From Arthrobacter sp. NicSoilB8 (GTDB lineage: Bacteria; Actinomycetota; Actinomycetes; Actinomycetales; Micrococcaceae), in the NCBI RefSeq assembly GCF_019977355.1, contig NZ_AP024655.1, forward strand, positions 4,526,001 to 4,590,000: a DNA stretch of 64,000 nucleotides, read 5' to 3'. The notes below the pieces were generated by a model, which had not been told where the DNA came from, searched no databases, and saw nothing but the letters and a program-made list of their open reading frames with translations. This document shows, one piece after another, positions 7,767-43,307 of the stretch (the stretch's first letter is position 1; each line of letters opens with the position of its first letter). The translations under genes were made by a program, and so were the position numbers.

Positions 7767-7832
7767 CCCAACTGACTAGCAGCAGGGGCCGTTTTGAGCG
7801 CTCAAAACGGCCCCTGCTGCTAGTCAGTTGGG
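7767..7832. repeat. Perfect 66-bp palindrome, copy 1
   Basis: Two 33-base arms with no loop pair perfectly. The core is GCAGGGGCCGTTTTGAG and its complement, with outer ends CCCAACTGACTAG / CTAGTCAGTTGGG. It abuts the stop codon of the convergent gene on the right, so it can act as a bidirectional terminator here. A near-identical 66-bp element lies at 43242-43307 in a setting where termination is not the obvious job. Confidence 0.9.
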
Positions 7833-31579: not shown

Positions 31580-32002
31580 CTAGTCGATTCCCCGCGGTCG
31601 CCAGACCACGAGCGCCTGCGACCTCGCCTGGGGGCGCTTACCGCGGGCCAGGCTGACGACGTCGCCCGCGGCTCCCGCGGCGAAGATGCGCGAGTCCACG
31701 GGGCGGGGGCGACGTTCGAGTTCTTCACTGAGCTCGGTGACGCGCCGTTGCAGGGCGGCCACCTGGTTCTCGAGCTGAAGGATCCGCTTGATGCCCTCCA
31801 GCGAGACCCCCTCCTGGGAGAGCCGCTGGACCTCGCGGAGCATGTTCACGTCCCGTTGCGAGTAGCGCCGCGACTTACCGGGCGCGCGGCTGGGCGAGAC
31901 GATCCCCAACCGGTCGTACTGGCGCAGCGTCTGCGGGTGCATGTCCGCGAGCTCGGCGGCTACGGAGATGACGAAGATCGGCTGATCGAAATCGATGGCC
32001 AT
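31580..32002 (-). CDS. hspR: Heat-shock repressor HspR (MerR family)
   Basis: 140 residues. A MerR-type winged helix (FVISVAAELADMHPQTLRQYDRLGIVSPSRAPGKSRRYSQRDV) is followed by a coiled coil (about 75-105, ILQLENQVAALQRRVTEL) and a short basic tail. HspR binds HAIR inverted repeats together with DnaK and shuts off its own operon. Here it is the last gene of dnaK-grpE-dnaJ-hspR, ten bases after dnaJ, and two TTGAG-N9-CTCAA sites lie at the dnaK promoter. Confidence 0.95.
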   Translation of the reverse strand: MAIDFDQPIFVISVAAELADMHPQTLRQYDRLGIVSPSRAPGKSRRYSQRDVNMLREVQRLSQEGVSLEGIKRILQLENQVAALQRRVTELSEELERRPRPVDSRIFAAGAAGDVVSLARGKRPQARSQALVVWRPRGID

Positions 32003-32012
32003 GGCTGGGCTC

Positions 32013-32996
32013 CTAGAGCCGGGCCTTGGCTGCCAGGCCCGCGCGGAGGTCCTCCCCGGCGGTTGCCGCGGCGAAGGCCTTCACGGCTTCCTCCGCTTCC
32101 TTGTTCAGCCGCCGCGGAACAGCGACGTCGATTGTCACCAGCAGATCGCCGGCGCCGCTGGCGTGCTTGACGCCGCGGCCCTTGACGCGCAGCGTACGGC
32201 CGGACGGCGTCCCGGCGGGGACCCTGACCTTCACCTTGTCGCCGTCGATCGTCGGGACCTCGACGTCGGCACCCAGGGCCGCTTCCGGGAAGGAGACCGG
32301 GACGTGGACGCGGAGGTTGTCGCCGTCGCGGACGTAGAAATCATGCGGCTTCACGGAGACGGTGACCATGAGGTCGCCGTTCCCGGCGGGACCGTACTGG
32401 CCCTTGCCGCGGACGCGGACCTTTTGCCCGTCCTTGATACCGGCCGGAATCCGGACGTCGATGACCTCGCCGTCGGGTTCGCGCAGCCCGATCGTGGTGC
32501 CGCGGATTGACCCGGCAAAGGAGATCGACGTGGAGGCGGTGCGGTCGGCCCCCTTCTGGGGACCGCGCTGGAACGACTGGCCCCCGCCGCCGAATCCGCC
32601 GCCGCCGAACAGATCCGCGAACTCGGGCGGAATCCCGCCGGCGGTGCTGTAGCCGCCGGAATGACGTCCCCCGCCGCCGGTGAAGAGGCCGCCGAAGAGG
32701 TCTTCGAAGCCCGCCCCGCCGGCAGCCCCGCCGCCACCGCCGGGGGCAAAGCGTGCGCCGCCGCCCATCGCGCGGATGGCATCATACTGCTGGCGCTCAT
32801 CGGCGTCCGAGAGCACGGAATAGGCCTCGGAGATGTCCTTGAACTTCTTCTCCGACGCCGTGTTGCCCGCATTGGTATCCGGGTGGTGCTGCCGGGCAAG
32901 TTTCCGGTAAGCCTTCTTGATATCAGCGTCGGAAGCGTCCTTGGCGACACCAAGGATCTTGTAGAAGTCCTTGTCCACCCAATCCTGGCTAGCCAA
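32013..32996 (-). CDS. dnaJ: DnaJ co-chaperone lacking the zinc-finger domain
   Basis: 327 residues. A J domain (about 8-75) with the HPD motif ([11 protein letters not shown]) stimulates the DnaK ATPase. A Gly/Phe-rich linker with many GGG runs (about 85-145) and two C-terminal beta-sandwich substrate-binding domains follow. The four CxxCxGxG zinc motifs of class I DnaJ are absent, so this is a class II (CbpA/Hsp40-like) protein, whereas DnaJ1 in the equivalent mycobacterial operon has them. The ATG follows GAAAGGAAACGCC. It is separated from grpE by a 313-bp hairpin-rich spacer, unusually long for this operon. Confidence 0.92.
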
Positions 32997-33034
32997 TGGC
33001 GTTTCCTTTCAAATCTGTTCTTGCCGAGCTCTCC

Positions 33035-33138
33035 GCGATACGTGGGCCCCCGCCCCTTCGCCGGGTGGCTTGGGATCTGCGATCCCAAGCCACCCGGCTT
33101 CGACAGGCCCGATGCCACTCCCGGGGCCCATGTATCGC
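33035..33138. repeat. Nested palindromic element 1 in the grpE-dnaJ spacer
   Basis: Outer arms of 16 bp (33035-33050 with 33123-33138, one mismatch) enclose an inner perfect hairpin with 18-bp arms and a three-base loop (33060-77, TGC, 81-98). Between inner hairpin and right arm is a 26-bp segment (33104-33129) whose inverted copy lies in element 2 (33199-33224). Confidence 0.85.
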
Positions 33139-33181
33139 TCCGAGCTTGTGATCATCTCACCTTAGGCGACGCGAACGCTGA

Positions 33182-33301
33182 ACGCCGTAGCGGATGAGGG
33201 GGCCCGGGAGTGGCATCGGGCCTGCCGGAGCGTGGCGGCTATGGTCCGCAGGACCTTAGCCGCCACGCGCAGGGGCGGGGTCCCCTCATCCGCGAAGGCG
33301 T
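33182..33301. repeat. Nested palindromic element 2 in the grpE-dnaJ spacer
   Basis: Outer arms of 20 bp (33182-33201 with 33282-33301, two mismatches) enclose an inner hairpin with 18-bp arms and a three-base loop (33230-47, GCA, 51-68, one mismatch). The architecture mirrors element 1 in inverted orientation, although outer and inner stem sequences differ. The two are linked by the shared 26-bp inverted segment. The right arm ends eight bases from the grpE stop. Confidence 0.85.
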
Positions 33302-33309
33302 GGAGGAGA

Positions 33310-33972
33310 CTACGCCGGTACTGCCACGATTACCTGTGCCGCTCGGAGGACGCGGTCTCCGGACTTGTAGCCCGAGCGCAGGACCTGGCTGACGGTGTCG
33401 AATTCGATGTCCGTGCCGGGCTGCTGGATGAGGGCCTCGTGGATCGTGGGATCGAACTCCACGCCGGTCTCATCAATGCGGACCAGTCCGTACGTCTTCA
33501 GCGCGGTCTCCAGCTTGGCGGCGATCGCGGCGAAAGGACCGTCCGTGAGGTCGCCGTGCTGGCGGGCGGCGTCGACGTCGTCCAGTACCGGGAGCAGGGA
33601 GTTCAGGACGCCGATGACGGCCATCTCCCCTGCCACGGCGCGGTCGCGTTCGACCCGCTTGCGGTAGTTGACGTACTCGGCCTGCAGGCGGCGAAGGTCA
33701 TCCCTGAGCTCCTCCGCCTCGGCCGCGCCGGGTGCACCCTGGGCCACCGACTCCGCGGCGGGCACCTCAACGCTGTTGAGGATGTCCTCCGCCTGGGACA
33801 GGGCGTCCCCGGAGCCGGCGTGCTCCTGGTTGGGGTGGCGGGCCTGGCCGGTCTTCGGGTCAACCTTGCGGTTGTCGTGGATCACCGGCTTCTGCGGCTC
33901 GTTCTCCCGCTGTTCAGCCTCGCGCCGGCTCTCGGAAGAACCGTGCTCTTCTTCGTTACCGTGATGCGGCAT
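33310..33972 (-). CDS. grpE: Nucleotide exchange factor GrpE
   Basis: 220 residues. A polar, charged N-terminus (about 1-80) leads into the long dimerising helix (AEELRDDLRRLQAEYVNYRKRVERD) and the C-terminal beta-wing, with the family signature around LKTYGLVRIDETGVEFDPTIHEAL. GrpE drives ADP release from DnaK. It starts two bases after the dnaK stop, which indicates tight translational coupling. A hairpin-rich spacer follows. Confidence 0.95.
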   Translation of the reverse strand: MPHHGNEEEHGSSESRREAEQRENEPQKPVIHDNRKVDPKTGQARHPNQEHAGSGDALSQAEDILNSVEVPAAESVAQGAPGAAEAEELRDDLRRLQAEYVNYRKRVERDRAVAGEMAVIGVLNSLLPVLDDVDAARQHGDLTDGPFAAIAAKLETALKTYGLVRIDETGVEFDPTIHEALIQQPGTDIEFDTVSQVLRSGYKSGDRVLRAAQVIVAVPA

Positions 33973-33974
33973 GA

Positions 33975-35837
<1,863 letters not shown>

Positions 35838-43241: not shown

Positions 43242-43307
43242 CCCAACTAGCTAGCAGCAGGGGCCGTTTTGGGGGCTCAAAACGGCCCCTGCTGCTAGCT
43301 AGTTGGG
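43242..43307. repeat. Near-perfect 66-bp palindrome, copy 2
   Basis: The same length and core as the element at 7767-7832 (GCAGCAGGGGCCGTTTTG and complement), with the centre changed to GGGG and the outer part changed on both arms to CCCAACTAGCTAG / CTAGCTAGTTGGG. Here it sits between two divergently transcribed genes, upstream of both, so it is not a simple terminator. Confidence 0.9.

Follow-up and report, generated by a model that had tools for sequence, protein, structure and literature searches.

The heat-shock operon of Arthrobacter sp. NicSoilB8 raises the question of what kind of element occupies the spacer between its grpE and dnaJ genes, where two palindromes lie in mutually inverted orientation, and what such structures might do there. 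The locus was analysed within a window of 64,000 nucleotides, the whole stretch of DNA under study, from whose first letter positions are counted. The operon is on the minus strand and comprises dnaK (33975-35837, named from its translation rather than from a library scan), grpE (33310-33972; PF01025), dnaJ (32013-32996; PF00226 and PF01556, with a TTG start and GAAAGGA upstream) and an hspR-like gene for a MerR-family regulator (31580-32002; PF13411), the name HspR being taken from operon position, so the dnaK-grpE-dnaJ-hspR context given in a preliminary description of the sequence was correct. GrpE had its best match in A. oryzae DSM 25586 (97% identical). The grpE-dnaJ spacer, on the same strand, is 313 nt long (32997-33309).

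The two palindromes are nested and of one design, as first described. Here they were found to have 18-nt inner arms, 3-nt loops, and outer arms of 16 and 24 nt. Their shared layout consists of an outer arm, CGCCCCT(T/A/G)C, an 18-bp inner hairpin with a three-base loop, TYCGRCAGGCCCGATGCCACTCCC, and the second outer arm, and a core of 18 bases, AGGCCCGATGCCACTCCC, lies between the inner hairpin and this second arm. Unit A, near dnaJ and antisense to the operon transcript, spans 33035-33138 on the plus strand; its 16-nt outer arms (33035-33050 and 33123-33138) have one mismatch, its inner hairpin (33060-33098) forms 18 of 18 pairs around the loop TGC, and its core (33105-33122) has no mismatches. 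Unit B, near grpE and in the sense of the transcript, occupies 33182-33301 on the minus strand, with 24-nt outer arms that are 88% complementary (33278-33301 and 33182-33205), an inner hairpin (33230-33268) of 18-nt arms with one mismatch and a 3-nt loop, and a core (33206-33223) likewise free of mismatches. They are inverted around a small shared palindrome. The central motif CTCACCTTAGGCGA (33156-33169) is situated between them, about 34 nt past the end of the unit A core and, on the opposite strand, 3' of unit B. The segment common to both units is indeed present in inverted copy, as an inverted repeat with 33-nt arms (33097-33129 and 33199-33231, score 24), and the entire units can be aligned as 99-nt arms with 75% complementarity.

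Within the 64-kb window, five of the 14 inverted repeats scoring at least 13 fall in the grpE-dnaJ spacer; the control, a single block-shuffled window, yielded one repeat at that score. The transcript strand from 32990 to 33320 folds at -215.4 kcal/mol (z -12.8), and none of 100 shuffles was equally stable. Units A and B fold jointly at -212 and as separate halves at -177, and according to this model the two together could form one long structure in the operon mRNA. The element may control dnaJ-hspR expression or mRNA processing. A search of 32950-33450 for a hairpin followed by a T tract, as in an intrinsic terminator (loops of 3-8 only), found none, and Rfam gave no match at gathering score in 32000-34500, the two sub-threshold matches having E values of 0.32 and 0.5.

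The same genome holds a third copy of the element, in the infB-rbfA spacer, which brings its total to three; together with recurrent loci in relatives, this answers the search for a second locus that had been proposed, and at these sites the architecture is kept while the stems change, just as the pair in the spacer had suggested. The 18-base core, with up to two mismatches, matched in 188 of 198 genus genomes, a count in which lone weak matches prove little because a reversed control pattern of the core also matches many genomes. A covariance model built from 32 units scored unit A at 118 bits (4559031-4559142 on the contig) and unit B at 111 bits (4559186-4559297), both units being in its training set, and found matches in 22 of 197 family genomes, half of them (11) in the genus and the other 11 spread over six further genera; in genus g24 it recovered only short or partial forms. 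Matching genus genomes had one to seven matches each; G181 had none, and G088 had seven, all at the recurrent loci. An order-wide search with the model matched 7 of 297 genomes, all of the same genus, under strict filters and with 12 candidates scored per genome, so that weak relatives may be missed. Distant blastn of plasmid records with the element, a query weakened by its variable stems, gave no match, and the exact core was absent from viral contigs. A literature search, to which subscription journals were mostly closed, found no description of this nested palindrome.

The distribution of copies is narrow. Across the genus and five further genera of the same family, 169 distinct core matches were classed by adjoining proteins; all but two lie at eight loci, L193 and L222 being left out as matches without structure, which leaves 167 units. 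There were 66 units at grpE-dnaJ (a count inflated by loci selected through GrpE), 32 at infB-rbfA, 31 at rho-prfA, 14 in a DUF4194 gene, 13 in cysD, nine in a lipoyl-E2 acyltransferase gene and two at a minor site, and four of the 167 were not parsable. When the GrpE-selected loci are removed, 120 parsed units in 57 genomes remain (infB-rbfA 32, rho-prfA 29, grpE-dnaJ 21, DUF4194 14, cysD 13, E2 9, minor site 2), numbers that overstate independence, since copies sharing a locus have a common ancestry. Pfam confirms the host genes at the recurrent loci. Thirteen further regions were matched by the model, 11 at known loci (one of them repeating an earlier locus) and two elsewhere as a short form without the inner hairpin. 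Units in other genera were found at rho-prfA (g8, g18 and g31), infB-rbfA (g31), cysD (g7, g28 and g31) and grpE-dnaJ (g7). Short forms that lack the 18-bp inner hairpin were seen at L083, L084, L315 and L316; L083 and L084, together with L085, make up the short and core-less forms that are not among the 169. Beside the infB-rbfA copy of L042 the outer arm region CCGCCGATATGGGGG is tandemly doubled.

Most likely, a nested palindrome family of about 110 bp, often with CTCRCC on its 3' side and situated at about nine loci, is old in the family to which Arthrobacter belongs. CTCRCC, about 34 nt past the core, was found on the downstream side of 97 of the 167 units and on the upstream side of 12; its reverse complement is downstream in 36 units, nearly all of them in the grpE-dnaJ spacer, at its palindromic centre. 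The explanation that we lean towards, with somewhat more confidence than doubt, is that of an old, low-copy family of nested DNA palindromes, similar to the Rickettsia palindromic elements (RPE), whose arms would be matched during replication and whose copies would be exchanged by recombination, with those of the dnaK operon acting as an interchangeable intercistronic hairpin. It is a palindromic family that keeps to a few homologous loci, some between the genes of operons and others within enzymes, where copies of either orientation lie in frame.

The stems of the element are free to change, while its core hardly changes. In the 32 units, 89.7% of stem cells are paired, and in 27 of 35 pairs both partners vary. 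Double changes came to 284, where shuffling gave 90 on average and slid controls no more than 96. Because the core pattern led to most of the relatives, core invariance is overestimated; the GrpE-selected set avoids this bias, and in the 55 model-found units of loci selected by GrpE only, the core was 97% conserved and the stems 76%. The core is thus nearly invariant, and the stems vary yet remain complementary. Strong covariation around conserved unpaired segments is also what would be expected of a cis-acting structured RNA in the operon mRNA, such as an attenuator, a processing site or a ribozyme-like element, with variable stems and conserved unpaired nucleotides as in riboswitches, and such an RNA would be in keeping with the very stable fold of the transcript strand and with the sense orientation of every copy at infB-rbfA (32/32) and rho-prfA (31/31). 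However, in the direction of the transcript the stem mismatches comprised 26 G-U and 27 A-C (22 and 21 distinct events), counted over outer stems and the inner stems of spacer copies, with the inner stems of coding copies excluded for their unequal arms, whereas the RNase P RNA of 30 family genomes, used as control, gave 72 G-U and 19 A-C (25 and 6 distinct); the difference on distinct events is modest (Fisher p = 0.014). A count including the bulged coding hairpins gave 28 G-U and 32 A-C in sense outer stems, and in antisense inner stems no G-U and 19 A-C (G-U in the transcript), 14 of the 19 from coding copies; taken alone, this last count would lean toward pairing at the RNA level. As there is no G-U excess in the transcript direction, unlike in RNase P RNA, the arms are probably kept alike at the DNA level. 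Unit A is antisense to its transcript, reading frames hold the element in both orientations, and Rfam had no match at gathering score, all of which speak against a structured RNA. We consider that reading unlikely, and the RNA-based element under structural selection envisaged in the preliminary description is not supported, given the lack of G-U excess, the two orientations and the copies inside reading frames. The comparison of G-U with A-C mismatches against an RNA control offers a simple means of separating palindromes maintained as DNA from those maintained as RNA.

Template switching between inverted repeats homogenises their arms and inverts the spacer between them, also in coding DNA, according to a published account (PMC8604942). 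In the DNA family preferred here, switching of the template during replication would copy one arm onto the other, which would keep the stems matched, and could flip the interior; this agrees with the way the stems vary and with the occurrence of cysD copies in either direction. The element resembles template-switched quasipalindromes in arm homogenisation, spacer inversion and occurrence in coding DNA, but it has a conserved interior core at several loci, and the published spacer inversions altered 2-5 bp (PMC8604942).

Gene-internal units number 36 of 167, and 33 of these 36, in cysD, E2 and DUF4194 genes, continue the open reading frame of the host domain (copies sharing the frame of the domain motif: cysD 11/13, E2 8/9 and DUF4194 14/14); one of the other three, L081, was open across the element in a separate reading. 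Both orientations occur in cysD (six the same as the gene, seven opposite) and in the DUF4194 gene (three the same, 11 opposite), and all nine E2 copies follow the gene. The encoded peptides read DAAPAPSP...SDRPDATPGAA in one orientation and GVASGLSEP...GEGAGAA in the other. Interior lengths of the 38 parsed gene-internal copies, which include two at the minor site in addition to the cysD, E2 and DUF4194 frame set, all leave a remainder of 1 on division by three, also for the three given as 76, which are probably 70 with an altered first motif and have the same remainder; the 125 spacer copies are mostly 71 or 72. This constancy in coding copies may come from common descent. The core is exact in 36 of the 38, in either orientation, a figure subject to the ascertainment through the core pattern. 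In cysD, orientation largely tracks the hairpin haplotype, as two acquisitions would give. In L226 the element lies close to the N terminus of its DUF4194 host, before the domain motif, and in 13 others near the C terminus, after it; this position at the other end of the gene suggests more than one acquisition or insertion, and the DUF4194 gene has probably been hit more than once. The DUF4194 host protein (L043 and others) has a likeness, below cut-off, to the condensin-type MksE. It may resemble JetB of the Wadjet system.

Two further readings give the element an active partner. Integron attC sites are recognised as folded single-stranded DNA. By analogy with them, the extruded element, with its variable stems and an asymmetric, conserved internal loop of 9/24 nt, might be recognised as folded single-stranded DNA by a putative recombinase or single-strand factor that would place, flip and maintain it at preferred genes, also in frame; we regard this as no less improbable than a structured RNA. 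Slightly less probable is a MITE- or REP-like element that prefers certain genes and is still mobile, moved by a transposase from elsewhere in the genome. A palindromic form, a length of about 110 bp, presence at several loci with in-frame copies, and the occurrence of partial and nested derivatives all suit transposition, and the L226 copy slightly strengthens it and slightly weakens the preferred explanation. Against it, the loci recur across genera, matching genus genomes have few model matches, and copies within a genome were not significantly homogenised (p 0.13, 0.19 and 0.36, all three toward more alike); a search limited to the Y1 type of transposase (RAYT, PF01797) was positive in 5 of 14 control genomes and in 0 of 18 genomes here. 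An element driven by RAYT is therefore rejected for these 18 genomes. The derivatives L158 and L170 show deletions with CGC microhomology, as judged by eye, deletion derivatives being the only material compared for target-site duplication, and the units that were inspected showed no sign of cargo. The mobile palindromic element proposed at the outset is supported as a recurrent element, which L226 suggests was acquired more than once; the few recurrent loci and the copies that are not significantly homogenised speak against active transposition.

Known families of short palindromes differ from the element in instructive ways. It is like MITEs in being short, non-autonomous in appearance and built of inverted repeats. 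REP sequences and BIMEs are palindromes, sometimes in inverted pairs, and REPs are described as extragenic and usually in more than 100 copies per genome (PMC2817692). The element shares with the REP/BIME-RAYT system palindromes and inverted pairs, but has a 110-bp nested design at one to seven model matches per matching genus genome, lacks a high copy number, is partly gene-internal and was without a Y1 transposase in the 18 genomes. Closest are the RPE, palindromic elements that measure about 150 bp and occur in frame within genes unrelated to one another (PMC10969869). The likeness in description lies in the palindromes and in the in-frame position, whereas the present element is distinguished by the small number of loci at which it recurs, by copies lying either way round in the same gene, and by nested hairpins.

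Turnover was evident in the grpE-dnaJ spacers. From 80 named genomes chosen by GrpE, 77 spacers could be delimited, three having no detectable dnaJ start, and all 77 genus spacers contain an inverted repeat that exceeded every one of 20 shuffles in strength. The kind of palindrome differs: 46 spacers have the present element, 15 have type III and five have type IV, both of these being other hairpins, and there is also type II, a related nested palindrome. The preliminary description had proposed comparing these spacers among relatives; what held in all 77 was a strong palindrome, and the particular element only in the 46. On the dnaK tree the type changes 16 times; shuffled labels gave 18.7 changes, with a minimum of 16 among 200 shuffles, which means that spacer type hardly follows descent, and six pairs of spacers with 93-97% identical upstream DNA (blastn) differ in type. 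Orientation here is constant, with sense units near grpE and antisense units near dnaJ. In spacers with both units the sense unit was upstream in 8/8, its position having been checked separately from orientation, and 26 of 27 antisense units stop short of dnaJ by an estimated 17-35 nt. By eye, L099, L138, L140 and L146 are deletion derivatives with the outer stem only, and L101 and L136 with a single arm. Spacers from other genera had a hairpin above shuffles, of other sequences, in 19 of 27 testable (of 30), and failed this test in 8 of 27, among them the two that do not belong to the family. For members of the family, a hairpin at the grpE-dnaJ position is the rule, and the hairpin sequence is not.

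Least probable is a DNA site under direct selection, for protein binding, chromosome organisation or recombination, that requires the extruded palindrome: the near-invariant core in GrpE-selected spacers, its exact form in most coding copies (with the same ascertainment caveat) and the downstream bias of CTCRCC would agree with it, but the number of model matches differs among genus genomes (none in G181, seven in G088), and copies disappear and give way to palindromes that are not related to them. In the old, exchangeable DNA family favoured here, loss would occur by deletion and regain at a locus mainly through homologous exchange of the surrounding DNA, not transposition, and a trans-acting factor or a constraint at the DNA level would maintain the core. 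In the dnaK operon the element would then be one of several interchangeable intercistronic hairpins, which would lower or insulate the expression of dnaJ-hspR relative to dnaK-grpE; the hairpin may thus set dnaJ-hspR below dnaK-grpE. Intercistronic REP palindromes are found between malE and malF, unequally expressed genes of one operon. The likeness is that of palindromes between the genes of one operon. Distal genes of the dnaK operon of Streptomyces coelicolor are reported to have lower transcript levels, ascribed to general polarity (PMC2687793). With a palindrome always present in the genus and its identity changing, the grpE-dnaJ spacer makes it testable whether interchangeable hairpins set chaperone stoichiometry.

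Several other repeats were seen in passing. The type II sibling, the nested palindrome GTGCCCGCTTCGCGGTGCCCTCCACAC, was found with up to three mismatches in 34 of 41 genus genomes (L104 and others) and is absent from that of NicSoilB8; several genomes have two copies about 1.45 kb apart, and the CCGC-rich small hairpin of the short forms L315 and L316 recalls it. In L082, L086, L102, L143, L144, L150, L152 and L163 a further palindrome stands in place of the core GCCCG, nesting once more (those at grpE-dnaJ as judged by eye). Elsewhere in the window, a perfect 19-bp hairpin with a 3-nt loop lies at 2212-2252, and the strongest inverted repeats of all, near-identical hairpins of 30-31 bp at 7767-7832 and 43242-43307 (CCCAACT..CTAGCAGCAGGGGCCGTTTTG), belong to a separate repeat family.
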